DNA from: Flavobacterium arcticum | Lineage (GTDB): Bacteria > Bacteroidota > Bacteroidia > Flavobacteriales > Flavobacteriaceae | Length of the DNA stretch: 64,000 bases | NCBI RefSeq assembly: GCF_003344925.1 | Contig: NZ_CP031188.1 | Span: 1,114,501 to 1,178,500, forward strand | Reading direction: 5' to 3' | In this document: piece by piece, positions 1 through 55,910 of the stretch | Layout of the letters: each line of letters begins with the position of its first letter | Position numbering within the stretch: the stretch's first letter is position 1 | Program-made: the position numbers and the translations under genes | Notes under the pieces: model-generated | Told to the model about the DNA's origin: nothing | The model's input: only the letters and a program-made list of their open reading frames with translations | The model's database searches: none

Positions 1-140
1 ATAATGTTTGTTTAAACTAAAAACATCAGCTTTTTATAGATTTTGAAAATTTCTATATTTAAGTTTTTCAACTGGCTAGATTATTGTTGTAATGGAATCA
101 AGTAAACAAATTGTGGGGACAATTCATTAAAGACTAAGAA

Positions 141-614
141 ATGCAAATAGAATATTTACAAGATTTGTTAAACTATCCTACTAGACCAGGCAATACTAAG
201 TCTTATTGGTTTAATACACCAATTCCAGAAACAGAAATAACAGCTTTAGAAGACTTATATAATAATGGAGCACCTTTTCCTAAAGCATTACAGGAGTTAC
301 TATATTTAGCGGGAGATTATTGTTATGTACTGGATTATGGGATTAATGAATCTCAGCAAGAATTACAAGAAGATGTACGAGAGCTCATAAATGAATATGG
401 AAAACAAATAACACGACCTTTTTATGCTGTAGATGTTTATAATGGTAACGACCAGTGTTTATTTATTTATCTTGACGAAGGAGATGACCCCTTTGTACAT
501 GAGGGATATTATTCTGACCCTGAATCTACATGGATAACTAAATTAAAATTAAAATTATCTGAATTTATAAACTATCGGGTAAAAAGAGTACAAGAAGGAC
601 GAAGTCCTTTTTGA
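141..614 (+). CDS. SMI1/KNR4 (SUKH) family protein, probable immunity protein
   Basis: A 157-residue cytoplasmic acidic protein without signal peptide or membrane segment. The pattern PIPETEITALEDLY near residue 28, followed by FPKALQELLYLAG and later an acidic strand segment (FIYLDEGDDPFVHE), is what SUKH-superfamily proteins of Bacteroidota look like. SUKH proteins commonly protect a cell against a polymorphic or contact-delivered nuclease toxin; that role here is inferred from family only. It lies 16 bp upstream of another small gene on the same strand, so the two are probably co-transcribed. No toxin gene is visible, though the window starts 140 bp upstream. The region is AT-rich compared with the suf genes beside it, which fits an accessory gene. 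Family call fairly sure, function uncertain. Confidence 0.65.
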   Translation: MQIEYLQDLLNYPTRPGNTKSYWFNTPIPETEITALEDLYNNGAPFPKALQELLYLAGDYCYVLDYGINESQQELQEDVRELINEYGKQITRPFYAVDVYNGNDQCLFIYLDEGDDPFVHEGYYSDPESTWITKLKLKLSEFINYRVKRVQEGRSPF

Positions 615-630
615 AATTATTGTAATTAAA

Positions 631-1047
631 ATGACTAAGAGAGAAGTATACAATTTAAAATTCTACAAAGGGCTAAATGGTTTTGGCACTATTGAGCATA
701 TGATAGATGCAAGTGATGCAGTAGGACTGTATGCAAGACTTTTTTTTATAGATATATTATACCCCATTGAAATAGAGAGTTTTATTCATGAGATTGAGTT
801 AATAGAAAATAACCAGCCGTATGACCCTGAATTTCTAATTTCTGGTGGAACAGAAGGAATACACATAGAGTTTGTCCACCCTAATGTTATAATTGATTTT
901 GATCTCATAATTCATATGAGTGATTTTAAAGAATTATTAATAGAATGGAGAGAGTTTAGAACAGAAGATACACCTACAAAGAAAGAGACTTTTATAGCAA
1001 AAATTTTACGGAAATTACAAGCAATTAAAACTAAACTTTACAGCTAG
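631..1047 (+). CDS. hypothetical protein, possible immunity-type partner
   Basis: A 138-residue protein that I do not recognise. It has no signal peptide or membrane helix. The middle alternates acidic and hydrophobic strands (VHPNVIIDFDLIIHM), and the last 25 residues are basic (KKETFIAKILRKL and onward). It follows the SUKH-type gene by 16 bp and ends 28 bp before a hairpin that separates it from the oppositely oriented sufD, so it is the last gene of a short plus-strand unit. Size, acidity and position next to a SUKH gene suggest a second immunity-like protein, but nothing in the sequence proves this. Confidence 0.6.
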   Translation: MTKREVYNLKFYKGLNGFGTIEHMIDASDAVGLYARLFFIDILYPIEIESFIHEIELIENNQPYDPEFLISGGTEGIHIEFVHPNVIIDFDLIIHMSDFKELLIEWREFRTEDTPTKKETFIAKILRKLQAIKTKLYS

Positions 1048-1074
1048 AGGAGCAAGAAGTATAAAAACAAAAAA

Positions 1075-1097
1075 CGACCTTGAATAAGGTCGCTTTT
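1075..1097. terminator. bidirectional terminator between accessory pair and sufD
   Basis: A 7-bp stem CGACCTT/AAGGTCG with loop GAAT, preceded by an A-run and followed by CTTTTT, lies between the convergent plus-strand gene ending at 1047 and sufD ending at 1120. It can terminate transcription from both sides. Confidence 0.75.
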
Positions 1098-1119
1098 TAA
1101 ATATATATTGTATTGAATA

Positions 1120-2436
1120 TTAAAGATCAAAACCCATATTAACGCCTAGTTTTTTGGCGATAAGCTTAGTAATTCTGCTTTTTAATTCTGGTATTTTAAT
1201 ACTCTCGATAACTTCGTTGCTAAAGGCGTACATTAGTAATGCTTTGGCTTCTTTTTTAGGGATACCACGCGACTGCATATAAAACATTGCACTCTCGTCG
1301 AGCTGCCCAATGGTACATCCGTGAGAACATTTTACATCGTCGGCAAATATCTCAAGCTGTGGCTTAGCGTTTATTGTTGCTTTTTCGCTTAATAACACAT
1401 TGTTATTCTGCTGAAAAGCATCGGTTTTTTGTGCTTCTTTCTCTACGTATATTTTACCATTAAACACTCCTGTGGAGTTACCGTCAAAAATACCTTTGTA
1501 GTTTTGGTGACTCTCGCAGTTAGGTGTTGCGTGCTGTACTAGCGTATAGTGATCTACGTGTTGTTTATCGCCTATAATGGTAATACCCTTCATAGTGCTC
1601 TCTATATGCTCCCCTTGGTGGTAAAAGTTCAGGTTGTTACGGGTAACATTACCCCCAAAAGAGAACGTGTGTACCGATGCATTGCTATCTCCTTTTTGAG
1701 CGATATAAGTATTATCTACTATGTTAGCTGTTTGTACGTCGTTTTGTATCTTGTAATAGTCTAAAATAGCGCGCTCTTGCACAAACATCTCAGTAACACT
1801 GTTAGTTAACACAGGGTTGCTGTTAAGGCTCTGGTGGCGCTCTATGATTTGCACCTGCGCATTTTCGCCTACTATAACCAAGTTTCTTGGCTGCACCATA
1901 AGTGCTGCTTCGTTACCTGTAGATAGGTACATGATTTCGATAGGCTTATCGGCTACTTTACTTTTAGGGATGTTTATAAACGCTCCCTCTATAGCAAATG
2001 CAGTATTTAGCGATGTAAGGCTATCATCAGTATTAGCTATCTTATTAAAGTAAGTATCTACTATATCTTTATACTTTGGCTTTGTTAATGCCGATGACAT
2101 AAGGCATACATCAATACCATCGTGTGTGGTAGAGGAAAGGTATGAACTAAATACACCATCGATAAAAACTAACTTGTATGTATCTATATCGTGTAGGAAA
2201 TACTTTTTTACATCGGCATAATGAAGTGCCGTTTCTGATTTAGGGAATACACTAAAATCGTTTTTAAGGATGCTGTTAAGCGATGTATATTTCCATGCTT
2301 CCTCTTTTTTGGTAGGGAAGCCTTTATTTTCGAAATTCTTAATGGCATCTGTACGAATATCGTGCAGGGTAGAGTGTACATCTACACGTTCTTCGAAAGC
2401 CATGAAAGAAGATAATAATTTGTCTTTTAAATCCAT
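1120..2436 (-). CDS. sufD: Fe-S cluster assembly protein SufD
   Basis: A 438-residue subunit of the SufBCD scaffold complex, which assembles iron-sulfur clusters in the cytoplasm. The N-terminal third has the helical SufD region (NFENKGFPTKKEEAWKYTSL). The C-terminal part is the beta-helix with the conserved VKCSHGCTIGQLDESAMFY segment, shared with SufB, followed by SRGIPKKEAKALLMYAF. Length is normal. It is the last gene of the minus-strand suf operon and is separated from sufC by an inserted four-helix-bundle gene. sufS and sufE, which usually follow in flavobacteria, are not here: the operon stops at the bidirectional terminator and a plus-strand accessory pair follows. Confidence 0.96.
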   Translation of the reverse strand: MDLKDKLLSSFMAFEERVDVHSTLHDIRTDAIKNFENKGFPTKKEEAWKYTSLNSILKNDFSVFPKSETALHYADVKKYFLHDIDTYKLVFIDGVFSSYLSSTTHDGIDVCLMSSALTKPKYKDIVDTYFNKIANTDDSLTSLNTAFAIEGAFINIPKSKVADKPIEIMYLSTGNEAALMVQPRNLVIVGENAQVQIIERHQSLNSNPVLTNSVTEMFVQERAILDYYKIQNDVQTANIVDNTYIAQKGDSNASVHTFSFGGNVTRNNLNFYHQGEHIESTMKGITIIGDKQHVDHYTLVQHATPNCESHQNYKGIFDGNSTGVFNGKIYVEKEAQKTDAFQQNNNVLLSEKATINAKPQLEIFADDVKCSHGCTIGQLDESAMFYMQSRGIPKKEAKALLMYAFSNEVIESIKIPELKSRITKLIAKKLGVNMGFDL

Positions 2437-2462
2437 TTTATTCTAGTCAAAAGTTTTAAAGT

Positions 2463-2870
2463 CATAAAGTCATAAAGACTCTCTGGCTTTATTTACTAAG
2501 GTATTTTATAAAGCCACTAAGCAGCTTTGCTATATCAGTAATTTCTGTTAGTAATTCATTAAAAATCTCGCTAGAGATATAATTAAGATCGTAGGCAAGA
2601 TATAATTGTGACCTTAGCTCACCCGCCGAACCTTTAGCTATGTATAAAAAATGTATAAATTCTTTATCTGTATTACGTTCAAAACCTTCTGCTATATTAG
2701 AAGATATTGACACAGAGCACCTTCTCATCTGTCGAGCCAAATCAAAGTCTTTCTTAAAAGCCAGAGCGTCTGTAATGAGGTATATCTTCTTATTAAGAAC
2801 TCTTGCTTTTTGCCAAGAATTAATTTCTTCAAAAGAATTAAACTTCCCCATAGTTCTTTACGACTTTATG
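2463..2870. repeat. imperfect inverted repeat bracketing the four-helix-bundle gene
   Basis: The left arm CATAAAGTCATAAAG (2463-2477) and the right arm CTTTACGACTTTATG (2856-2870) are inverted copies with 14 of 15 matches. They lie just outside the stop and start of the 120-residue gene between sufC and sufD. More AAAGTC-like words continue outward on both sides (for example around 2871-2890). This layout suggests that the gene and its flanks were inserted as one short cassette. Confidence 0.6.
2489..2851 (-). CDS. four helix bundle protein (23S rRNA intervening-sequence type)
   Basis: A 120-residue all-helical protein of the TIGR02436 type, recognised by FNSFEEINSWQKARVLNK at the N-terminus, LARQMRRCSVSISSNIAEGF in the middle and FLYIAKGSAGELRSQLYLA after it. 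The family was first met in open reading frames inside intervening sequences of 23S rRNA; most members in Bacteroidota are free-standing and of unknown function. It also shares its fold with the Avd protein of diversity-generating retroelements, but no reverse transcriptase or variable repeat is present here. It interrupts the suf operon between sufC and sufD, with short inverted repeats on both sides, so it looks like an insertion that keeps the operon transcribed through. No role in Fe-S assembly is implied. Confidence 0.85.
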   Translation of the reverse strand: MGKFNSFEEINSWQKARVLNKKIYLITDALAFKKDFDLARQMRRCSVSISSNIAEGFERNTDKEFIHFLYIAKGSAGELRSQLYLAYDLNYISSEIFNELLTEITDIAKLLSGFIKYLSK

Positions 2871-2890
2871 GCTTTCGACCTTCGACTTTA

Positions 2891-3640
2891 TTATACGTTT
2901 TCAGCTTTAAGCCAGTCGTATCCTTTTTCTTCTAGCTCATGAGCCAGTTCTTTACCACCCGATTTTACAATTTTACCATTGTAAAGTACGTGTACAAAAT
3001 CTGGAACTATATAATCTAAAAGTCTTTGGTAGTGTGTAATTACAATAACTGCATTGTCTTTACTACGCAGCTTGTTAACACCGTTAGACACGATACGCAA
3101 TGCATCAATATCAAGACCAGAATCGGTTTCATCAAGTATCGCTAGTTTTGGCTCTAGCATTGCCATCTGGAAAATCTCATTACGTTTCTTTTCTCCACCA
3201 GAGAAACCTTCGTTTAACGAACGTGATAAGAACTTACGGTCTATTTCTAAAAGCTCACTTTTTTCACGAATAAACTTAAGCATCTCATTTGCTGGCATAT
3301 CTTCTTTACCTTGTGCTTTACGGGTTTCGTTAATCGCTGTTTTCATAAAGTTAGTTACCGATACTCCTGGTATCTCTACAGGGTACTGAAATGAAAGGAA
3401 AACACCTTTGTGGGCTCTTTCTTCTGGAGCAAGCTCGCCAATATCTTCACCTTCAAAGATAATTTCACCACCTGTCACTTCATATTCTTCTTTTCCGGCT
3501 ATAACCGATGATAGTGTACTTTTACCAGAACCATTAGGTCCCATTATAGCGTGCACTTCACCTGCTTTTACTTCAAGGTTTATACCTCTTAAAATTTCTT
3601 TATCTTCGACACTTGCGTGTAAATTTTTTATTGATAACAT
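2891..3640 (-). CDS. sufC: Fe-S cluster assembly ATPase SufC
   Basis: The ABC-type ATPase of the SufBCD complex, 249 residues from the chosen start. Walker A is GPNGSGKST, the signature region is EGFSGGEKKRNEI, Walker B is LAILDETDSGLD and the H-loop is VITHYQRLL. An upstream in-frame ATG at 3691 would add 17 residues and overlap the end of sufB; I prefer 3640 because the protein then begins MLSIKNLHASVEDKEIL, as SufC homologues do. It is 31 bp downstream of sufB and expressed with it. ATP hydrolysis by SufC drives rearrangement of the SufB-SufD scaffold during cluster formation. Confidence 0.96.
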   Translation of the reverse strand: MLSIKNLHASVEDKEILRGINLEVKAGEVHAIMGPNGSGKSTLSSVIAGKEEYEVTGGEIIFEGEDIGELAPEERAHKGVFLSFQYPVEIPGVSVTNFMKTAINETRKAQGKEDMPANEMLKFIREKSELLEIDRKFLSRSLNEGFSGGEKKRNEIFQMAMLEPKLAILDETDSGLDIDALRIVSNGVNKLRSKDNAVIVITHYQRLLDYIVPDFVHVLYNGKIVKSGGKELAHELEEKGYDWLKAENV

Positions 3641-3671
3641 TAATTTGGAAATTTGTTGATTTGGGAATTTA

Positions 3672-5120
3672 TTAACCGACTGAACCTTCAAGGCTTATTT
3701 CTAAAAGTTTTTGAGCTTCTACAGCAAACTCCATCGGTAGTTTATTAAGTACTTCTTTACTAAAGCCGTTTACTATAAGTGCGATTGCCTTTTCTGTAGG
3801 AATACCACGCTGGTTACAGTAAAACACTTGGTCTTCGCCAATTTTACTTGTAGTAGCCTCATGCTCTATTTTGGCTGTTGTATTTTTAGACTCTATATAC
3901 GGGAATGTATGCGCCCCACAGTTGTTACCCATTAGTAATGAGTCACATTGCGAAAAGTTACGCGCATTTTCGGCACGACTGTTTATTTGTACTAAACCAC
4001 GGTAGCTGTTTTGCGATTTTCCTGCCGAGATACCTTTAGAGATAATAGTACTCTTAGTATTCTTGCCAAGGTGTATCATTTTAGTACCTGTATCTGCCTG
4101 CTGATAGTTATTGGTAACTGCAATAGAATAAAATTCTCCTACTGAGTTATCACCTTTTAGCACACAACTTGGGTATTTCCATGTTACTGCAGATCCTGTC
4201 TCTACTTGTGTCCAAGATATTTTGGCATTCTTTTCGCAAAGTCCACGCTTGGTTACAAAGTTGTACACACCACCTTTACCCTCTTTATTACCAGGGAACC
4301 AGTTTTGTACTGTACTATATTTAATTTCAGCATCGTCCATTGCTATAAGCTCTACTACCGCAGCGTGCAACTGGTTTTCATCACGGCTTGGTGCGGTACA
4401 ACCTTCTAGGTAACTTACATAACTACCTTCGTCGGCAACTACAAGTGTACGTTCAAATTGTCCTGTTCCTGCTTGATTGATTCGGAAATAAGTAGAAAGT
4501 TCCATTGGGCAACGTACTCCTTTTGGTATATAACAAAAAGACCCATCGGTAAATACTGCTGAGTTTAACGCAGCATAAAAATTATCTTTTTGCGGCACTA
4601 CAGTACCAAGATATTTCTTTACTAACTCTGGATGCTCTTTAATAGCTTCGGATATGGGGCAGAATATAATGCCCTTTTCGGCAAGTGTTTTCTTGAATGT
4701 AGTGGCTACAGAAACAGAGTCTACAACAATATCTACCGCCACATTATTCATCTTCTTTTGCTCATCGATAGAGATGCCCAGTTTTTTATACATTGCCAAA
4801 AGCTCAGGGTCTACATCATCAAGCGTTTTATTTGGGTCTGCTTTTTTTGGTGCAGAGTAATATGATATCGCCTGAAAATCGGGTTTTTGGTAATGTACAT
4901 TTGCCCATTCAGGTTCAATCATTTGTTCCCATGCTCTAAAAGCCTCAAGTCTCCACTCTGTCATCCACTCTGGCTCTTCCTTTTTAAAAGAAAGCGCACG
5001 AATAACATCTTCGTTAAGCCCTATTGGGAAAGTATCACTCTCTATATCGGTATAAAAGCCATATGCATACTCTTTATTTTCGAGCTCGACTTTTAATTCT
5101 TCTTCTGTATATTTACTCAT
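3672..5120 (-). CDS. sufB: Fe-S cluster assembly protein SufB
   Basis: A 482-residue scaffold protein of SufBCD on which the nascent Fe-S cluster is built. Conserved features include [19 protein letters not shown] in the middle, [20 protein letters not shown], and the C-terminal block [20 protein letters not shown] followed by [11 protein letters not shown]. Length and order are typical of bacterial SufB. It is the second gene of the operon, 77 bp after the SufA-like gene, and is followed by sufC. The cysteines that hold the cluster in E. coli SufB have plausible counterparts here, but I did not align them. Confidence 0.97.
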
Positions 5121-5707: not shown

Positions 5708-6568
5708 ATGAAATTATACCCAATAGAGAGCGGTAACTTTAAGCTCGATGGCGGTGCTATGTTTGGCGTAGTCCCAAAAACCCTTTGGAGCCGTACCAAC
5801 CCTGCCGATGATAAGAACCTTATAGATATGGCAGCGCGTTGCTTACTAATAGAAGATGGCAACAGGCTAACCCTTATCGATACGGGAATGGGGAACAAAC
5901 AAAGCGAAAAATTTTTTGGTTATTACTCCATGTGGGGCGACCATTCTATAGATAAGTCACTGGCAAAATATGGTTTTAGCCGTGATGATATTACTGATGT
6001 GTTTTTAACACACCTGCATTTTGACCACGTGGGCGGTGCTATACAATGGAATAAAGACCGAACGGGTTATGAAACTGCTTTTAAAAATGCACATTTCTGG
6101 ACAAATGATAACCACTGGGAATGGGCAACTAAACCTAATGCGCGCGAAAAAGCATCTTTCCTTACAGAGAATATTATGCCAATGCAGGAAAGCGGACAAC
6201 TTAAATTTATAGAACGCCCCAAAGGCGATTTTAAAGAAAGTAGCGAAATGGGCTTTGGGATATTTTTTGCCGACGGGCATACCGAGAAGCAAATGTTACC
6301 TCATATAAATTATATGGACAAAACTTTTGTGTTTATGGCTGACCTTTTGCCAACAGCAGGGCATATACCGCTACCTTATGTAATGGGCTATGATACACGA
6401 CCGTTGCTTACGCTTGACGAAAAAGCTAAATTTTTAAATACGGCTGCTGATAAAGAATATTATTTGGTACTAGAGCATGACGCACATAATGAAATAATTA
6501 CAGTACAGCATACCGAAAAAGGCGTTCGTCTTAAAGAGGTTTTAAAATGGGACGATATATTAATGTAA
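5708..6568 (+). CDS. metallo-beta-lactamase fold hydrolase
   Basis: A 286-residue cytoplasmic protein of the MBL superfamily. The metal-binding motif HLHFDHVGG is at about residues 104-112. An early strand with the LIDTGMG turn, the later FFADGHTEKQM (third histidine) and the terminal LVLEHDAHNE complete the usual order. It resembles the lactonase/quinone-oxidase-like MBL proteins annotated as MBL fold metallo-hydrolases in flavobacteria; substrate unknown. There is no signal peptide. It stands alone, divergent from the suf operon, with 180 bp between the two start codons. Confidence 0.85.
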   Translation: MKLYPIESGNFKLDGGAMFGVVPKTLWSRTNPADDKNLIDMAARCLLIEDGNRLTLIDTGMGNKQSEKFFGYYSMWGDHSIDKSLAKYGFSRDDITDVFLTHLHFDHVGGAIQWNKDRTGYETAFKNAHFWTNDNHWEWATKPNAREKASFLTENIMPMQESGQLKFIERPKGDFKESSEMGFGIFFADGHTEKQMLPHINYMDKTFVFMADLLPTAGHIPLPYVMGYDTRPLLTLDEKAKFLNTAADKEYYLVLEHDAHNEIITVQHTEKGVRLKEVLKWDDILM

Positions 6569-24240: not shown

Positions 24241-24816
24241 ATGAAGTACTTTATTCTAATCCTAAGTTTTCTAGCAGCTTCTTGCACAATTAATCGACAG
24301 ACGAGTATAAAATTTGAGAAGCAGAATAAGAAGACTATGACTAACTATCTTAATAAGAAAGGTTATGAAGTATCAGCTAATGAAATTGCAACGTTAAATG
24401 GTATTAATACCTTCATCGAGTATAATAATTCTGAAAAATTAGTTATACCTGAAGCTTATTTCTTCAATAAAGATGGATATCTAATATCAGGATTTGAAGG
24501 TACAGGATGTGGTATGGCTATAAGTAATATTGATGAAATTAGTAATGCTAGTTCAGACAATAAAGAACATTTTAAGGATTGGATAACCAATTATAATTTC
24601 CTTTCTAGTGACAATACAGAAGCCAGTTATGATGCTTATGTAATTATAAATTGGGCAATGTTTGTTGATGGTATGAACGATGATACATCGTACAACTGGT
24701 ATAAATCCCTTAAAAACAACAAGGATTTAAACATACGCATCATTTTTCTTAACTTAGATATTCAAGAGAATTGGAAATTATCAGATGATAATAAAAAAGT
24801 ATTAGGGTTAGAATAG
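24241..24816 (+). CDS. hypothetical lipoprotein
   Basis: A 191-residue protein I do not recognise. It has a signal peptide with lipobox, LILSFLAASCTIN (Cys near residue 15). The mature part contains VIPEAYFFNKDGYLISG, GTGCGMAISNIDEI and NIRIIFLNLDIQENW. The strand-helix alternation and the GTGCGM segment recall a thioredoxin-like arrangement, but there is no CxxC motif. It is AT-rich compared with holB and lies 32 bp after the DoxX-like gene, convergent with the helicase gene behind it. Probably an accessory envelope protein. Confidence 0.7.
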   Translation: MKYFILILSFLAASCTINRQTSIKFEKQNKKTMTNYLNKKGYEVSANEIATLNGINTFIEYNNSEKLVIPEAYFFNKDGYLISGFEGTGCGMAISNIDEISNASSDNKEHFKDWITNYNFLSSDNTEASYDAYVIINWAMFVDGMNDDTSYNWYKSLKNNKDLNIRIIFLNLDIQENWKLSDDNKKVLGLE

Positions 24817-48263: not shown

Positions 48264-48812
48264 ATTTATTTTTAAAGTTTCAAAGTTGTTAACATTTATA
48301 ATATAATACAAAATAGATTTATTTAAATTTAAAAAAGAATGATGGTTATTATAGCGTGTTAATAATAGGCATAACTTTTAGTTATATTTTTGTTTTGTCT
48401 ACTTGTAGTAAGTTATACAGAATAATCAACAATGTTAATTTAATGTAAACTACTGATAAGTAAGTATATTTAAATTCTGATTATTGAGTTATCAACAGTT
48501 GTTAATAATACAGTTTATCTATATTTTTTTGATAAGTCAGGTTGTTAATTAGTGTTAATAACTAGTAGTAAACCTTGCATAAAAATATGTAAAAAAGCTG
48601 AAACTTTTCTTGCATTTTACAATTGAACTGCTGTATGTAAAAAAATTGTTAACTAACCAGAAAAATTTATAATTTTCGTTCTTTACTTATCAACAATATT
48701 AGTTAATTTATAACTCCTTTATTTACAGTATATTTTAATACTTATTAACATTGCCTTATTTTAACATTTTTATTGTTATATTATTAGCCTCTAATGTTAA
48801 TTAAATAATATG
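48264..48812. other. AT-rich gap with repeated DnaA-box-like nonamers, candidate oriC
   Basis: About 550 bp without a gene. Six exact copies of TTAT[C/T]AACA occur: minus strand at 48357-48365, 48500-48508 and 48553-48561; plus strand at 48489-48497, 48687-48695 and 48742-48750. The pair at 48489-48508 forms TTATCAACA-GT-TGTTAATAA. Near copies with one change are at 48423-48431 and 48543-48551. The DnaA box consensus is TTATNCACA, so these differ by one base. The stretch 48720-48810 is extremely AT-rich, as an unwinding element would be. Gene direction changes here. dnaA itself is not in the window. Confidence 0.45.
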
Positions 48813-48852
48813 ATGCTGGTTAACAGCATATTAAAATTGTTTGGTAAATTTG
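48813..48852 (+). promoter_or_regulatory. rpiB promoter -7 element and upstream palindrome
   Basis: TAAATTTG (48845-48852) matches TAnnTTTG, 32 bp before the rpiB ATG. ATGCTG-GTTAA-CAGCAT (48813-48829) is a perfect 6-bp inverted repeat placed about where a regulator or the -33 region would be. Confidence 0.5.
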
Positions 48853-48884
48853 CACCCATAAACAACATAACACAACAACGAAAT

Positions 48885-49316
48885 ATGAAAATTTCAATAG
48901 GCAACGATCACGCTGCACCCGATTACAAAAAAGCAATAGTACAACATTTGGAACAAAAAGGTATAACAGTTATTAACCACGGTACCGATACTTTTGATAG
49001 TGTCGATTATCCTGACTTTGTACACCCTGTAGCCGAAGATGTAACCAATGGTACTGTAGCTATGGGTATTATTATTTGCGGAAGCGGTAACGGAGCAGCC
49101 ATGACAGCTAACAAACATAAAGGTATTAGAGCTGCACTATGCTGGACGAAAGAAATTACCGAACTGGCACGCCAGCACAACGATGCTAATATACTAAGCA
49201 TACCGGCACGCTACACATCCATACAACAAGCTATAGGAATGGTAGATGCTTTCCTGAATACGGAATTTGAAGGTGGTCGTCACCAAAACCGTGTAGATAA
49301 AATAGCGTGTAACTAA
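48885..49316 (+). CDS. rpiB: ribose-5-phosphate isomerase B
   Basis: A 143-residue enzyme interconverting ribose 5-phosphate and ribulose 5-phosphate in the pentose phosphate pathway. The RpiB features are MKISIGNDHAAPDYKKAI, the TDTFDSVDYPDFVHPVAEDV block, GIIICGSGNGAAMTANKHKG with the active cysteine, and the EFEGGRHQNRVDKIAC end. The frame is open to 48810, but those residues overlap the promoter, so the ATG at 48885 is used. A degenerate second copy of its 3' end lies about 1 kb downstream (50246-50316). Confidence 0.95.
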   Translation: MKISIGNDHAAPDYKKAIVQHLEQKGITVINHGTDTFDSVDYPDFVHPVAEDVTNGTVAMGIIICGSGNGAAMTANKHKGIRAALCWTKEITELARQHNDANILSIPARYTSIQQAIGMVDAFLNTEFEGGRHQNRVDKIACN

Positions 49317-49340
49317 TAATTACTCGTTTTATATATACTA

Positions 49341-49513: not shown

Positions 49514-50080
49514 ATGACAACTATTGGTAAAAAAATTGCAACAATACGCAAACAAAAAGGACTAACACAAGAGGAAGTTGCCGAAACCGCCAACATAAAC
49601 CTGCGTACCCTGCAACGTATAGAAAAAGACGAAACCGAGCCACGCGGCAACTCGTTAAACGGCATTTGTAGCGCACTCGGCATAGCTATAGAAGATATAC
49701 TGGACTATGGTAAAAACGAAGACAAAAGTTACCTGATATTTCTGCATCTTTCTATACTTAGTTTTTGTGTAATACCCTTAGGCAATATTATACTGCCGCT
49801 TATATTATGGCTCAACAAACGGGATAAAATTACCGATGTACAACAGCAAGGTGCCAATATTATTAACTTTCAAATTATGTACACGTTTATAACCTATGGC
49901 GTACTTCTTTTTGCAGTATTTAGTAAGTTATGGAACTATAACGTGTCGTTTAACGGAATACTATTGGGCTTACTGGCAGTGAGTATTTTCAATTTTATCT
50001 ACGCTATTAGTAATGCCATACGTATTAATAGAGGGATCGTTAAGAATTTTTATCCGGTGTTATTCAGGATTGTGAAATAA
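49514..50080 (+). CDS. XRE-type HTH protein with DUF4870-like membrane domain
   Basis: A 188-residue protein joining an N-terminal helix-turn-helix (residues about 5-60: GKKIATIRKQKGLTQEEVAE, then NLRTLQRIEKDETEPRG) to a membrane part with three or four helices (FLHLSILSFCVIPLGNIILP, QIMYTFITYGVLLFAVFSKL, GILLGLLAVSIFNFIYA). A soluble DNA-binding head tied to a DUF4870-like membrane region suggests a membrane-held regulator; signal and target are unknown. It lies between rpiB and a decayed copy of the rpiB end, so it is probably an insertion. Confidence 0.82.
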   Translation: MTTIGKKIATIRKQKGLTQEEVAETANINLRTLQRIEKDETEPRGNSLNGICSALGIAIEDILDYGKNEDKSYLIFLHLSILSFCVIPLGNIILPLILWLNKRDKITDVQQQGANIINFQIMYTFITYGVLLFAVFSKLWNYNVSFNGILLGLLAVSIFNFIYAISNAIRINRGIVKNFYPVLFRIVK

Positions 50081-50245: not shown

Positions 50246-50316
50246 GATATTATTCCGAAGACTGAATTTGAAGGTGGACATCACAAAACAAAATAGATGA
50301 AATAACTTGTAAATGA
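50246..50316 (+). pseudogene. decayed copy of the rpiB 3' end
   Basis: Seventy bases align with rpiB codons DAFLNTEFEGG through the stop. ATTTGAAGGTGG is identical, and TAGAT, AAATA and TGTAA match later. With one missing base restored the copy would read DIIPKTEFEGGHH, one unknown residue, then NKIDEITCK and stop, a plausible RpiB C-terminus of another strain. Similarity seems to continue about 20 bp past the stop (ATTAC and TTTTAT). No start or body of the gene is present. Confidence 0.7.
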
Positions 50317-50332
50317 AGATTACGAGATTTTA

Positions 50333-51166
50333 TTATTCATAATCGTCATACCATTCACTAGTATCTACAGCTAAGTCCTCTACTGTGTAATTTTTTGATG
50401 GGAAATCGTCATCGATTTTATACTTAATGCTGCAATCAAAGGCAAAATATTCATATAAATCGAGACCATCATCTTCACGTCTCTCGTTTTTAGATCCATA
50501 CTCTAAAACTACGTGAACGTATCCTGAAACTTCTACGCAGATCTCATCGCTTGTTATGTCAACTACTTCGAATTCTTCAACATCACTATGTTCTATATAG
50601 TGATGCGTAGACAAAATATCAATTTCACTAAATATAGTAGACGTAACTTCCGAAAATATTTGATCATGAATAACCCTATCTATTTCGTTTCTCAAATCAT
50701 CTCTATAATCTAAAATAGTCATTACAAATTTTGAAAAAGTTGAGAGCACAAGTGAACTTTTCTCAGTCACTTCATCATCTAGTAAATTATATGTATCTTC
50801 ATTTATATGTGTATACTTACTTAAAGAATCAATAATACGTTTCGTTTCGATAATAGTATCTCTAAGTTCTTCTAGATCTAAACCTAGTTGTTCTATATAC
50901 TCATCAGACAAGCCACCTTTTACGGCATATTTAATTCGCTGAGATCTGGAAGGAGCACCGTTGTGAGTTTCTTTTATAAACCAGTTACAATTTATTACCT
51001 GATTATCAGGCGATAATGAATGCAAGAAATGTCTGGAAAGTTCTCGAATGCTATAAGCAAAATTGTTATATCTTAATTTATTAGATTTATCATTTAAGTT
51101 TTCTATAGCTGAATCAAACAAACTTTTTTGAAACTCTGTTTTTAATATTTTCTTGATATTATCCAC
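50333..51166 (-). CDS. hypothetical protein, possible pPIWI-associating-nuclease-like
   Basis: A 277-residue acidic cytoplasmic protein I cannot assign firmly. The N-terminal 160 residues are helical with SIRELSRHFLHSLSPDNQV and CNWFIKETHNGAPSRSQRIK, followed by KYAVKGGLSDEYIEQLG. The C-terminal 90 residues are beta-rich (EFEVVDITSDEICVEVSGYV and an acidic end). From memory, this layout resembles domains named predicted pPIWI-associating nuclease, often found as single accessory genes, but no catalytic motif is certain. It lies between the rpiB relic and tex on the opposite strand, is AT-rich and is probably accessory. Confidence 0.7.
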   Translation of the reverse strand: MDNIKKILKTEFQKSLFDSAIENLNDKSNKLRYNNFAYSIRELSRHFLHSLSPDNQVINCNWFIKETHNGAPSRSQRIKYAVKGGLSDEYIEQLGLDLEELRDTIIETKRIIDSLSKYTHINEDTYNLLDDEVTEKSSLVLSTFSKFVMTILDYRDDLRNEIDRVIHDQIFSEVTSTIFSEIDILSTHHYIEHSDVEEFEVVDITSDEICVEVSGYVHVVLEYGSKNERREDDGLDLYEYFAFDCSIKYKIDDDFPSKNYTVEDLAVDTSEWYDDYE

Positions 51167-51277: not shown

Positions 51278-53401
51278 ATGACAAACATTCAGTATATAGC
51301 GGGCGTGGTAACCGCACCTGTAAAAAGCATAACCGCCACCTTACAACTCCTTAGCGAAGACTGCACCATACCCTTTATAGCCCGTTATCGTAAAGATACC
51401 ACCGGCAACCTCGATGAGGTAGACATAGAGCAAATAGCGAAGCTCAGCCAAGCGTATGAGGCAATTATAAAGCGTAAGGAAGCCATACTAAAAAGCATCG
51501 AAGAGCAAAATGCCCTTACACCCGAATTACAGGATAAAATCAGCACTACTTTCGACCTCACGGAGCTGGAAGACTTGTACCTGCCCTACAAAAAACGCCG
51601 AAAAACCAAAGCCGACACCGCCCGCGAAAACGGACTCGAACCGTTGGCAAAAATAATCATGGCACAAAACGCCGATGACATCGACTATATAGCAGGCAAG
51701 TACCTGAACAGTAACGTTGCTAACGAAGACGACGCATTGCAAGGCGCACGCGACATTATAGCGGAGTGGATAAACGAAAATATGTATATCCGTAAAAGTT
51801 TACGTCGCATTTTTAGTCGCAAAGCAACCATTACTACTAAAGCGGTTAAAACCGCCGACCCTGAAAAGGCACAAAAGTTTTCGCAATACCTCGACTGGAG
51901 CGAGAACCTAACCAAAGCGCCATCGCACCGCTTGTTGGCAATATTACGTGCTGAAGCAGAGGGAATCATCAAATTCAAAATAGAAGTTGATAATGATGAG
52001 GTGCTCGACCTTATGGAGCAGTCAATCATCAAAAAACCGAATGTAGCAACCACAGCACAACTGCAAAAAGCCATAGCCGACAGTTATAAACGCCTGCTTG
52101 CTCCCGCCATTAGTAATGAGGTATTGCAGGAGGCAAAAGCCAAAGCCGATGCAGTGGCAATACAAGTATTCGCCGATAATTTAGGGCAGTTATTGCTCGC
52201 ACCGCCCTTGGGTGAAAAGCGCATTTTGGCTATAGATCCCGGGTATCGTTCGGGGTGTAAAGTAGTATGCCTCGATGAGAAAGGGGACTTGCTGTATAAC
52301 GAAACGATATTTCCGCATCCGCCACAAAAAGAGTCGGCTATAGCCATGAAAAAAATCCGTTCTATGGTCAATGCTTACAAAGTAGAGGCAATATCCATAG
52401 GCAACGGCACCGCAAGCCGCGAAACGGAGCATTTTATTAAAAAAATAGCGTGGGACACACCACCGGAAGTATATATGGTAAGCGAGGCAGGGGCATCGGT
52501 ATATTCTGCATCAAAAATTGCCCGTGCCGAATTCCCGAATTACGATGTAACCGTTAGGGGAGCGGTATCTATTGGGCGCAGGCTCAGCGACCCGCTTGCC
52601 GAACTGGTAAAAATAGAACCCAAAGCCATAGGCGTAGGGCAGTACCAGCATGATGTTGACCAAACCAAGCTAAAAGATGAGCTTGACACGGTAGTGATGC
52701 GTTGCGTAAATGCGGTAGGCGTAAACCTGAATACTGCCAGTGGAGCATTGCTCAGTTATGTATCGGGTATAGGGGAGAAGCTTGCCGAAAATATAGTAAA
52801 CTACCGTAGTGAAAACGGTGCTTTTGAAGATAGAAAGCAACTGAAAAAAGTACCCCGATTGGGCGAAAAAGCCTATCAGCAGGCAGCAGCATTTGTGCGC
52901 ATACCCAATGCTAAAAATCCGCTGGATAATAGCGCGGTGCACCCCGAAGCGTATGCTATTGTCGAAAAAATGGCAAAAGACCTGAAACTGAAAACATCCG
53001 ATTTAGTTTCCAATAAGGAAGCGATTGCTAAAATAAACCCATCAACTTATGCCACCGAAAAAGTGGGTATTTTGGTACTACAAGACATACTAAAAGAGTT
53101 GGAAAAACCGGGACTTGACCCGCGTAAGTCGGCTAAAATGTTTGAGTTCGACCCCAATGTAAAATCGATTACCAACTTGCATACAGGTATGATATTACCG
53201 GGTATTGTGAATAACATTACCAACTTTGGTTGCTTTGTAGATGTCGGTATTAAAGAAAGCGGACTTGTCCATATTTCGCAACTCAAAGAAGGCTTTGTAA
53301 GCGATGTAAACGAAGTAGTAAAGTTACATCAGCACGTTACAGTAAAAGTTATTGAGGTAGATGAAGCGAGGAAACGTGTAGCGTTAAGTATGATTATTTA
53401 A
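51278..53401 (+). CDS. tex: Tex family RNA-binding transcription accessory protein
   Basis: A 707-residue conserved protein. The N-terminal Tex helical region has CTIPFIARYRKDTTGNLDEV. The YqgF/RNase-H-like domain has LAIDPGYRSGCKVVCLDE and ISIGNGTASRETEHFIK. The helix-hairpin-helix part (NTASGALLSYVSGIGEKLAE) and the C-terminal S1 domain (LPGIVNNITNFGCFVDVGIK) complete the order. Tex acts on transcription and RNA; mechanism not settled. Its GC content is clearly higher than that of the accessory genes on both sides. An 83-bp duplicate of its end lies 1567 bp downstream. Confidence 0.96.
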   Translation: MTNIQYIAGVVTAPVKSITATLQLLSEDCTIPFIARYRKDTTGNLDEVDIEQIAKLSQAYEAIIKRKEAILKSIEEQNALTPELQDKISTTFDLTELEDLYLPYKKRRKTKADTARENGLEPLAKIIMAQNADDIDYIAGKYLNSNVANEDDALQGARDIIAEWINENMYIRKSLRRIFSRKATITTKAVKTADPEKAQKFSQYLDWSENLTKAPSHRLLAILRAEAEGIIKFKIEVDNDEVLDLMEQSIIKKPNVATTAQLQKAIADSYKRLLAPAISNEVLQEAKAKADAVAIQVFADNLGQLLLAPPLGEKRILAIDPGYRSGCKVVCLDEKGDLLYNETIFPHPPQKESAIAMKKIRSMVNAYKVEAISIGNGTASRETEHFIKKIAWDTPPEVYMVSEAGASVYSASKIARAEFPNYDVTVRGAVSIGRRLSDPLAELVKIEPKAIGVGQYQHDVDQTKLKDELDTVVMRCVNAVGVNLNTASGALLSYVSGIGEKLAENIVNYRSENGAFEDRKQLKKVPRLGEKAYQQAAAFVRIPNAKNPLDNSAVHPEAYAIVEKMAKDLKLKTSDLVSNKEAIAKINPSTYATEKVGILVLQDILKELEKPGLDPRKSAKMFEFDPNVKSITNLHTGMILPGIVNNITNFGCFVDVGIKESGLVHISQLKEGFVSDVNEVVKLHQHVTVKVIEVDEARKRVALSMII

Positions 53402-53421
53402 ATATAAATAAATGTCTAATT

Positions 53422-54885
53422 ATGAAAAAATTATTTATTGTATCATTGTTTATAATGTATACAGGGGTTAAAGCTCAAAATTTGTTTCCGGTAAAACTTG
53501 AAAATTGTAATACTGAATATTTTTGTTTGGATTGTGGAGATATAAAAGCCTCATATGATGAGGCTAAGTTTGAGAAGATGTTAAAGAGGCTAAATAAGTC
53601 GCTTGACCTAAAGGACGCCAAAGGGGGAGTAATGTTCCAAATACTTATTGATACTAAAGGAAGAGGATGTACATTAAGTCATACAGATATGGGTAAAAGT
53701 TATATATCAAAAGAAATTATAAAGGAATTAAATAATTTTAAAGGTTGGAAACCCGCATATAATAAAGATGGGATAAAAGATAAAGTATCAATAAATATGC
53801 GTTTTACCATTCAGGATAACCATATTACAGGAAAAATAGAGCGTGTTGATACTGATGCTTTTGGAAAATCATTTGACAGACCTGTAGATCCTGAAATTTA
53901 TAACGACCATTATACTTATACCAATGAGAATTTAAAAAACTATAGCTTTACTATATGGAATTCTTCAAACTCATCTTTACCTGATAATAGTGTAAATCAT
54001 ATAGCTGCAGACTCAAAAGGTAATATATGGGCTATCGCTGATAGTGAACTACTCTACTTAAGCGGAAATGAGATACAATTAGCACCTGAAAATACTACTG
54101 AAGAAGAGATTAAAAAGCGAAAATATTTTGCTTTGGGTATTGATGATAATGACAGGGTATGGACAGATGGTGTCTCTGCAATATTTAGTCTTGAAAATGA
54201 TGAATGGAGAAAATATAAAGAAGATGAAATAGGTATTCCTGATGCTTATGGTTTTGTGAACAACCCATCTTCCGATGAGTTTTTTATTTGTTCCAAAACA
54301 GGATTAGTTATAAAAACCAACGAAGGGTTTAAAATGATTACAAAATCAAAAATTAAAGAATTTCCTTCTGATAGAGTTGACTTTGCAAAGCGAGATTCTA
54401 AAAACAGGTTATGGATAGGAACATTTGATGGGTCTGTAATGATAGATGAAAATAGCAAAGCAACAAGCTTTAATGATACTAAAGAAATGCTAAAAGGTTA
54501 CTGTATTACCTCTATGGATGAAGATGATGAAGGTAATTTATATTTTGGTCTTTATGAGCTTAATCCTAAAGATCGTAAACAAGCAAATAGAAATGAGGGT
54601 ATTGCTATTTTCCATAATAATGGTACTTGGGAACACTTTACTACTAAAAATTCAGGAATGCCTTTTAATCATACTACTCGTGTGTTGTTTGACAAAAGAG
54701 AAAAAATTTTATGGGTTTCAACTGACAGAGCCGGATTAGTACGCTATGACCTGAATGGCAACTGGGAAAACTATCATAACCTAAACTCTCATATACCAAC
54801 ATCTTATATTGCAGATATGTGTTTTGATAAAGAAGGAAATCTGTATTTAGCTACTCGACAAGGTATTGTTAAAGTAGAGAAGTAG
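53422..54885 (+). CDS. secreted protein with TonB-C-like domain and beta-propeller repeats
   Basis: A 487-residue protein with signal peptide (FIVSLFIMYTGVKAQN). Residues about 35-130 resemble a TonB C-terminal fold (GVMFQILIDTKGRGCTLSH, KGWKPAYNKDGIKDKVSINM) without a membrane anchor. The rest is a two-component-regulator-type propeller: blades NHIAADSKGNIWAIADSE, IDDNDRVWTDGVSAIF, KRDSKNRLWIGTFDGSVMI, DDEGNLYFGLYE, EKILWVSTDRAGLVRYDLNG and DKEGNLYLATRQGIVKVE. No kinase follows. It begins 21 bp after tex and its stop codon lies within the duplicated tex end, so it was inserted between tex and that copy. Role unknown; probably periplasmic. Confidence 0.8.
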   Translation: MKKLFIVSLFIMYTGVKAQNLFPVKLENCNTEYFCLDCGDIKASYDEAKFEKMLKRLNKSLDLKDAKGGVMFQILIDTKGRGCTLSHTDMGKSYISKEIIKELNNFKGWKPAYNKDGIKDKVSINMRFTIQDNHITGKIERVDTDAFGKSFDRPVDPEIYNDHYTYTNENLKNYSFTIWNSSNSSLPDNSVNHIAADSKGNIWAIADSELLYLSGNEIQLAPENTTEEEIKKRKYFALGIDDNDRVWTDGVSAIFSLENDEWRKYKEDEIGIPDAYGFVNNPSSDEFFICSKTGLVIKTNEGFKMITKSKIKEFPSDRVDFAKRDSKNRLWIGTFDGSVMIDENSKATSFNDTKEMLKGYCITSMDEDDEGNLYFGLYELNPKDRKQANRNEGIAIFHNNGTWEHFTTKNSGMPFNHTTRVLFDKREKILWVSTDRAGLVRYDLNGNWENYHNLNSHIPTSYIADMCFDKEGNLYLATRQGIVKVEK

Positions 54886-54968
54886 TAAAACTACATCAGC
54901 ACGTTACAGTAAAAGTTATTGAGGTAGATGAAGCGAGGAAACGCGTAGCGTTGAGTATGATACTGTAG
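54879..54968 (+). pseudogene. duplicated 3' end of tex
   Basis: Bases 54879-54961 match tex 53312-53394 at 79 of 83 positions. The frame is intact from a Val-Val-Lys-Leu start to ALSMIL and stop (54966-54968). All four differences within the block are synonymous (AAG/AAA, TTA/CTA, CGT/CGC, TTA/TTG); just after it the final codons differ (ATT ATT TAA against ATA CTG TAG). There is no start codon or gene body, so it is only a tail remnant. It begins inside the last codons of the propeller gene. Confidence 0.9.
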
Positions 54969-54990
54969 TTACGGGTTACGTGTCATTACT

Positions 54991-55029
54991 TCGTCATTGC
55001 GAGCGTAATGAAATGGAGCGTGGCAATCT
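54991..55029. repeat. REP-like intergenic element
   Basis: The stretch starts TCGTCATTGCGAGCGTAATG and ends GGAGCGTGGCAATCT; GATTGCCA/CGTCATTGCGAG wording is typical for dispersed intergenic repeats in many bacteria. It lies between the tex relic and a minus-strand accessory gene. Confidence 0.6.
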
Positions 55030-55069
55030 TTATGGATTGTTATTAAGATAACTTAGATGATAGTAGTAT

Positions 55070-55612
55070 TTATGAAACCCATCTCATTTGATAATTTATA
55101 ATTTTCCAGAATCCATCTATTTTTTCTAAAAAGAATATTCCACCACTACCACAAAGCCCCCCGCAAACATATGCTCCATAAACTACGGCTTTTTTATTAT
55201 CAACTGAGATTAATGGATAGGAAATAAAAGCTATAGGGCGTTTTTTTCTATTATTTTCGAGCTTTTTATTAGTGTATTTATTTATTCTTTTATTATCAGT
55301 TTTATTTATGTTATTATCTAAATTTAGATAAAAGGGTAATTTAAAATATTTTTTCGCATAATCCAGATTGTATGCTAATGTATCAACATAAAATTCATTT
55401 AATCTTTCATCATCAAGGTTTTCAATTTCAAAGAAATATCTTCTTTCTATGTCGGATAATAGGTTAGTATTCTTAAACCTATTGTAAATATAGGTGCTGT
55501 CAGGGTTATATTCCTGTATGACAAGACTGATTATCTGAGAAACATCTTCTTTTGTCTGGCTTGATACAAAACAAGATATTAATATAAAAATTGATGTAAG
55601 TATTGTTTTCAA
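55070..55612 (-). CDS. hypothetical secreted protein
   Basis: A 180-residue protein of unknown family with a signal peptide (LTSIFILISCFVSSQTK; the ISCFVSS part could also be a lipobox). The body is rich in Asn, Tyr and Lys (NKTDNKRINKYTNKKLENNR), strongly AT-biased, and ends in beta-type segments (KKAVVYGAYVCGGLCGSGGI, FFLEKIDGFWKIINYQ) that resemble the end of NTF2-like or lysozyme-inhibitor-like secreted proteins. It lies between the tex relic and the tatA terminator and fits the accessory zone. Confidence 0.72.
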   Translation of the reverse strand: MKTILTSIFILISCFVSSQTKEDVSQIISLVIQEYNPDSTYIYNRFKNTNLLSDIERRYFFEIENLDDERLNEFYVDTLAYNLDYAKKYFKLPFYLNLDNNINKTDNKRINKYTNKKLENNRKKRPIAFISYPLISVDNKKAVVYGAYVCGGLCGSGGIFFLEKIDGFWKIINYQMRWVS

Positions 55613-55700: not shown

Positions 55701-55910
55701 TTATAGTTTATTCTCTTCTTGTTGTTTTTTAGATGTTTGGTGTGGCTGATCGTCGTCTTTTGCTGCATTTTTAAATTCCTTAATACCAGACCCAAGTCCT
55801 TTCATTAATTCAGGAATTTTCTTTCCTCCAAACAACAATACAATTAGTACTACCACTACAGCTATTTGCCATGGTCCTACTATTCCTAAAAAAAATGCTA
55901 ATGCGTTCAT
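55701..55910 (-). CDS. tatA: Sec-independent protein translocase subunit TatA
   Basis: A 69-residue protein of the twin-arginine translocase that exports folded proteins. The pattern is complete: short N-terminus, one membrane helix (GPWQIAVVVVLIVLLFGGKK), the hinge FGGKKIPELMKGLGSGIKEF forming the amphipathic helix, and an acidic/polar tail. tatC is not adjacent. The promoter -7 element TAACTTTG lies on the minus strand at 55933-55940. Confidence 0.95.
   Translation of the reverse strand: MNALAFFLGIVGPWQIAVVVVLIVLLFGGKKIPELMKGLGSGIKEFKNAAKDDDQPHQTSKKQQEENKL

Follow-up and report, generated by a model that had tools for sequence, protein, structure and literature searches.

In Neisseria, minimal mobile elements are alternative sets of genes that lie between two conserved neighbours and are exchanged by homology, and in integron arrays new cargo enters beside a fixed gene and older cargo is pushed back. 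For many small accessory genes of bacteria, we know of no visible vehicle. Insertion with long target duplication was reportedly described in Helicobacter pylori by Nobusato and others in 2000. Here we analyze a 64,000 nucleotide (nt) stretch of Flavobacterium arcticum DNA (the window; assembly GCF_003344925.1, contig NZ_CP031188.1, positions 1,114,501 to 1,178,500 of the forward strand), in which the housekeeping gene tex is followed by a propeller gene and then by a second copy of its own 3' end. The first tex end (copy 1) is designated T1 and the second (copy 2) T2. We read T2 as the resident tex end, displaced when incoming DNA carrying a tex end plus the propeller gene recombined into the resident tex, and give this reading a probability of roughly 0.7.

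The arrangement recurs in Flavobacterium, with 15 loci readable in one piece. At these 15 loci, unlike in the Neisseria elements, the new set is added before the old junction and a scar is left; unlike in an integron, the separator is a piece of a host gene and no integrase was found among the proteins scanned (attC sites lay outside the scan). In H. pylori, as at tex, a foreign gene lies between a segment and a long direct copy of it, and restriction-modification genes are among the cargo (PMC1643837). The inserts at the 15 tex loci are likewise flanked by long direct copies of the target segment, but these copies have diverged by mostly silent changes and each stands in the native junction of a different genotype, so that one copy was likely imported; furthermore, the arrangement recurs genus-wide at one housekeeping gene. 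For the displaced effector 3' ends and immunity genes at type VI secretion system loci of Vibrio cholerae, and for orphan Rhs 3' regions, a module anchors in a conserved stretch and pushes the old 3' part downstream, and additions can stack, both of which resemble tex (PMC5361080). In contrast to V. cholerae, the tex anchor is a housekeeping gene, the cargo is unrelated to it and the displaced piece is without evident use and is not an immunity gene. In Escherichia coli, ligated circles leave a partial gene-end duplication of 109-950 bp behind the inserted DNA (PMC3240628), which is similar to the tex pattern, whereas the tex route is inferred from genomes, involves natural cargo and mostly shows shorter homology. 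Searches of limited coverage, mostly with queries not naming tex, found no literature on tex-end duplication or a tex-tatA hotspot. Within the literature searched, the repeated displacement of the end of a housekeeping gene by cargo that is unrelated to it, in which the junctions of both parents can still be read, stands as a novel variation on these known systems.

The tex end recurs in the window as a direct repeat of 83 nt with 79 identities and a spacing of 1567 (Table 1), and T2 stays in the tex frame as far as a TAG at 54966-54968, as an earlier note on this DNA had stated. All four differences within the block are synonymous; beyond it, the last codon is ATT in T1 and CTG in T2 (Ile to Leu) and the stop codon changes from TAA to TAG. 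The repeat has an ungapped match score of 71, compared with 16 or less in reverse-complement and codon-shuffled controls (44 junctions scanned), and a chance repeat was ruled out by the shuffle controls. The propeller gene, which encodes two-component-regulator propeller repeats, is the sole gene between T1 and T2. It starts 21 nt past the tex stop codon and its own TAG (54883-54885) is built from T2 bases, making the join tight. The insert is AT-rich, with a guanine plus cytosine content of 0.31 compared to 0.45 in tex. T2 has no usable reading frame, since an in-frame TAA closely precedes it (54870-54872) and its only ATG, GTG or TTG codons could lie within the last six. Matches to the propeller gene were found in 16 of the 398 Flavobacterium genomes, its own included, and the N-terminus of its product looks, by eye, like a signal peptide. 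The relative in G130 (L155) is not behind tex but upstream of it, near a helix-turn-helix (HTH) gene.

The strongest evidence for displacement is what stands behind each end. In a comparison of 122 genomes (E 1e-6, shift at most 120 nt) against the 15 loci, genomes were considered donor-type if the insert stands straight behind tex with no second end, and resident-type if their tex-downstream DNA matches that behind copy 2. A donor-type genome exists for 12 of the 15 loci, with the insert colinear from near the stop codon, and 13 of the 15 have a resident-type match behind copy 2. Since the insert is colinear behind copy 1 and DNA that follows tex elsewhere stands behind copy 2, two native tex junctions appear to have been joined. 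For example, the G066 sequence behind copy 1 aligns with G079 (tex-insert, no second end) over bases 5-3015 and 4-3016, respectively, at 82% identity, while that behind copy 2 aligns from the stop codon with F. hibisci (1-1500 and 3-1495, 86%) and is colinear with G060 and, less closely, with G075 and G042. The window and G309 have an insert common only to each other, G204 is without a donor type, and no resident type was found for G363 and G099, the latter having little sequence behind its copy 2. The comparison with relatives lacking the propeller gene, which the earlier note had proposed for the tails, succeeds for the context: DNA behind the window T2 matches tex-downstream DNA of G228 (59 nt, 95%) and G380 (39 nt, 100%), which have no propeller match and a tex about 89-90% identical to that of the window (sliding-window average). 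As this match is short and includes a repeated element, its weight rests on the register behind the stop codon. Identity to these two genomes along tex did not give a decisive breakpoint, with that of G380 dropping toward the end from 94 to 80%. The repeated GTCATTGCGAGCGTAATGAAATGGAGCGTGGCAA-type element occupies window positions 54967-55030 behind T2 and is also found behind tex in G228 and G380.

A second line of evidence comes from the codons. With last codons excluded, 128 synonymous and 33 non-synonymous T1/T2 differences were counted over 14 loci (pooled ratio of non-synonymous to synonymous change, pN/pS, 0.07). The non-synonymous share is 20%, compared to an expected 0.65 if copy 2 decays freely. 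This free-decay model has a pooled P of 7e-31 for the 14 loci, 1e-22 when each of nine cargo types is represented by a single locus and 0.016 for the window alone (4 synonymous, 0 non-synonymous), in line with the purely synonymous block that the earlier note had described. Local duplication with free decay was ruled out individually (P < 0.05) in 11 of the 14 loci. The predominance of silent differences looks as if both ends had come through evolution as functional gene ends. When a small sample of 44 junctions was scanned at the nucleotide level without regard to codons, no class of copies rich in non-synonymous changes appeared. Mostly silent differences would also be expected if T2 were retained for the sake of a small S1-domain protein made from it, and the G065 and G309 copies have open frames of 70 and 68 codons, respectively, that cover roughly the S1 domain and offer an ATG or an alternative start codon. 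The window T2, however, covers under half of this domain, has no usable start and lies behind an in-frame stop codon, and an S1 domain would not fit into copies of 25-45 residues, making retention for this reason extremely improbable. The displaced ends at L130 3818-4024 and L132 7261-7473 (G309 and G065), in which about the whole S1 domain is open, could be translated.

Import would proceed as follows. A fragment from a foreign strain or species, probably carrying its own tex end plus cargo, would pair by homology with the resident tex, with copy 1 and the insert arriving together. This fragment, starting inside tex and ending behind the cargo, was likely ligated end to end as a circle, and one crossover in the tex tail would then produce a complete tex, the cargo, a partial tex end and the old downstream DNA. 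When a circle enters by a single crossover, a partial tail necessarily remains beyond the cargo, and the partial gene-end duplication that such entry predicts behind the insert is present. The left edge of copy 2, which is ragged and lies 26 to about 280 nt from the stop codon in the 15 loci, would mark the place where the fragment was cut. Because tex is complete ahead of the insert, the cost of entry would be low and the tex-tatA junction could be refilled repeatedly. In a study of E. coli conjugation using cut plasmids, a polymerase chain reaction product of a partial duplication of the homologous gene end was obtained from 56 of 60 Lac-minus clones, and the authors read the 14 sequenced duplications (of the size range given above) as the result of a circle and a single crossover; the assay was designed for illegitimate recombination, with duplication as the main outcome (PMC3240628). 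The same study assigns 4 of the 60 clones to homology-facilitated illegitimate recombination (PMC3240628). At tex, a linear fragment would in this case pair by its tex end, and its other end would join the resident tail directly with no circular stage. This process could generate the same product at tex, where one homologous junction (tex) and one non-homologous junction (cargo-flanking DNA to tex tail) are present, the left edge is ragged and no consistent microhomology is seen by eye. It has been proposed for additive effector displacement in V. cholerae (PMC5361080) and effector swapping in Pseudomonas aeruginosa (PMC11751169). Its expected product is nevertheless a deletion, as in those 4 clones compared with the 56 duplications, and at tex there is no resident loss: the tail is present twice and resident-type downstream DNA is kept in 13 of 15 loci. 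We consider entry by this linear route to be quite unlikely.

Several observations weigh against import. For the window, the post-T2 match has the shortness and repeated element noted above, and a genome in which the propeller gene follows a tex without a second end was not encountered; in G309, which has the same insert, a second end is present too. The decay model stands unrejected in G272, G234 and G106, and most copies were detected via protein similarity, which favours few amino acid changes; this bias toward silent change is not entirely removable. The window T1 and T2 are mutually closest (74/78 identities, compared with 69/78 for the next genome), an outcome that the earlier note had named beforehand as speaking for local duplication. 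T1 and T2 also pair in quick trees for all three genomes tried, with support by the Shimodaira-Hasegawa-like approximate likelihood ratio test of 97.7 for G309, 80.6 for G099 and 73.8 for G185, and this pairing is also expected from local duplication. In the window, nine relatives compared at five differing sites (to position -7) side with copy 2 in 27 comparisons and copy 1 in 10, as expected if copy 1 is the incoming one, but the G309 tail shows the opposite (70 for copy 1, 29 for copy 2). When the first-listed donor-type and resident-type genomes were compared at T1/T2-differing sites over all loci, both favoured T1 (72 vs 53 and 74 vs 51, respectively), so that the sorting of tails expected by the earlier note was not seen. 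Assigning the tails to donor or resident according to their similarity to the tex body or downstream gene gave mixed results (71 loci, two T2 loci skipped). G099 and G185 have genome-specific tails despite a common insert: at nine sites T1 equals T2 within each genome, with one T1/T2 site, which requires later homogenisation or two entries. Judged from these alignments, the tail sequences do not reveal which copy came in; the tails are short and the donors distant, and none is near enough to map the crossover point in both tails.

The same observations bear on the main rival of import, insertion with long target duplication. Here, the insert would enter right behind the tex stop codon by some process that duplicates the recipient's own tex end, with the silent differences arising by later tex allele exchange among strains. 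Such insertions are described in H. pylori (PMC1643837), the trees tried join T1 with T2 in all three genomes, and within-genome tails are the more alike, both in the window and G309 (91%, compared with 76-80% between genomes, over 88-89 nt) and in the 5' part of the G099 and G185 tails. Target duplication with allele exchange would also explain the tree pairing and the G099 and G185 tails, as would a same-species donor or a later exchange between the two ends; because the comparison covers one genome per species, a same-species donor and a local copy are not separable. However, target duplication needs two separate processes, and free decay is rejected in the 11 loci given above. In addition, in 5 of 14 loci (G056, G099, G389, G080 and G066) copy 2 resembles the tex of another species more than copy 1 of the same genome, with a margin of 1 to 7 bases, and the same inserts stand behind tex in genomes without a second end for 12 of 15 loci. 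Target duplication thus appears unlikely to us. The proposal of the earlier note that ends from two lineages were joined, with the resident end left behind, is accordingly supported by the codons and the context, but not by the mutually closest tails, which do not show the direction. The relatives with the insert that it had proposed to compare exist, as genomes without a second end, for 12 of 15 loci but not for the propeller gene of the window.

To survey the genus, the last 37 residues of tex were used as a query against 398 Flavobacterium genomes. A match was found in 377 and two ends in 14, including the window's own. Using full-length tex (E 1e-5), a second end was recovered in 10 of the 13 other genomes, those missed being G106, G272 and G389, whose copies are short; direct self-comparison recovered it in all 12 one-piece loci, window included. 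In G131 and G137 the second end sits on a different contig, and because the two G137 contigs overlap by 347 nt at 95.7% identity, they are not a single gene cut in two. G080, G066 and G017, which have shorter copies, were added when 44 filled tex-tatA junctions (at least 480 nt) were scanned both with proteins and, without regard to codons, at the nucleotide level. Ten insert types, none of which clusters with another, are found at the 15 one-piece loci: the propeller gene (window and G309), a DUF433/DUF5615 pair (G056, G106 and G389, with a version without long frames in G234), an outer-membrane-like protein with a sigma factor and a third gene (G065), a hydrolase with Yip1 and DUF2089 (G099 and G185), a type IIG-like restriction enzyme with a neighbour (G204), Septu PtuA and PtuB (G363), an ATPase (G272), a three-gene set (G066), an 832 amino acid (aa) repeat protein (G080) and a 220-aa protein (G017). 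The G099 and G185 inserts are 96.2% identical while their tex bodies are 85.3% identical, suggesting that the cargo moves. The insert of G272 (L143), an ATPase, is found in G389 (L144) as an older resident behind copy 2, an instance of stacked cargo.

In an even draw of 101 genomes, of which 88 junctions were read, the tex-tatA spacing was <300 nt in 48, 300-479 nt in 3 and at least 480 nt in 28, while tatA was not located in 9. Empty junctions, which the earlier note had suggested looking for, are therefore common (48/88). Of the 28 junctions of at least 480 nt, 6 contain a second tex end, as does 1 of the 9 without a located tatA. In the window, tatA lies downstream on the minus strand but not directly behind T2, as a 180-aa frame intervenes. 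A site-specific integrative element that attaches at the tex 3' end and brings its own tex end could account for a complete tex, a right edge that coincides with the tex stop codon or lies a few bases from it and the defence-type cargo of some loci. In contrast, no integrase-like family was identified among the insert proteins scanned (some, such as those of G080 and G017, were outside the scan), the left edges of the duplicated segment vary from -26 to about -280 in the 15 loci with no fixed core, and inserts are also present without any second end. Such an element is very improbable.

Table 1. Features of the tex region and the neighbouring rpiB region (window coordinates)
Feature	Position	Strand	Remarks
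rpiB end	49251..49336	+	gene 48810-49316; source of second, older displaced-end pair
HTH + DUF4870 gene	49514..50080	+	between the two rpiB ends
decayed rpiB end copy	50253..50336	+	62-nt BLAST match, 79%, E 9e-8, with indels
tex	51278..53401	+	707 aa; Tex_N, YqgF, HHH and S1 domains
T1, first tex end	53312..53401	+	repeat block 53312-53394, last codons, stop TAA
Reg_prop propeller gene (insert)	53422..54885	+	487 aa; PF07494, E 2.8e-17
T2, second tex end	54879..54968	+	repeat block 54879-54961, last codons, stop TAG
native-type tex downstream DNA	54969..55060		matches G228 and G380 DNA behind tex; has repeated GTCATTGCGAGCG element
180-aa open frame, T2 to tatA	55070..55612	-	no Pfam match
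tatA	55701..55910	-	usual convergent neighbour of tex

Displaced ends are not limited to tex (Table 1). When 800 kb of the same chromosome (626 open reading frames) were scanned, the only further candidate was C1:22862-23956 (L239), which we take to be a NIF3-like gene and whose end recurs at 71% identity some 600 nt downstream, at 24563-24659. In Maribacter zhoushanensis (L046), the end of a gene at 2173-4263, presumably metG, recurs at 5777-5871 over about 104 nt at 91% identity, on the far side of a 480-aa gene. This metG-like locus sits just upstream of tex, and its end copies differ by 4 silent and 4 non-silent changes (by manual reading), which looks like decay. In a Prevotellaceae metagenome-assembled genome (L064), the end of a gene at 120-1868 and a terminator-like hairpin are repeated at 2630-2671 (42 nt, identical), which may reflect the same process or an assembly effect. 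Within the window, the gene at 50333-51166 on the minus strand matches the PADLOC Aga_Nuclease model (E 2e-79) as well as Pfam pP_pnuc_1 and 2 (pPIWI-associating nuclease).

As mirror-image controls, copies of gene starts and of the tatA end were sought. In the 800 kb of chromosome, gene starts were not seen to recur as lone copies; the start matches and the remaining end matches lay between full-length relatives, with the exception of one internal motif at 330715-332235. In a scan of 206 loci, the re-checked start matches in L161, L077, L224 and L220 were tandem relatives, while matches of 18-29 nt in L052, L225, L215, L075 and L048 had no full-length relative. Mirror-image copying of the tatA end was not found in 44 junctions. 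The three high tatA-end scores, in G022, G027 and Myroides, probably come from tandem tatA-like genes.

It is tempting to extend these results to a more general mechanism, though we do so tentatively and consider it somewhat doubtful: conserved gene ends (tex, the metG-like gene of Maribacter, rpiB and the NIF3-like gene) may serve as recombinase-free ports, at which a host-gene end plus cargo enters by a single homologous crossover, stacks ahead of older cargo in the manner of integron cassettes and leaves one countable scar per entry. A short fragment of tex, or a break in an assembly at a gene's end, should not be dismissed outright, as it may be real. If import is correct, a displaced gene end is a readable trace of entry in which both parental junctions are preserved, and the tex-tatA junction represents many repeats of one experiment across a single genus. 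Entries would then be countable and the adding of genes distinguishable from swapping, and defence genes (Septu and restriction-like enzymes) and toxin-antitoxin-like pairs could be found by the scars that they leave.

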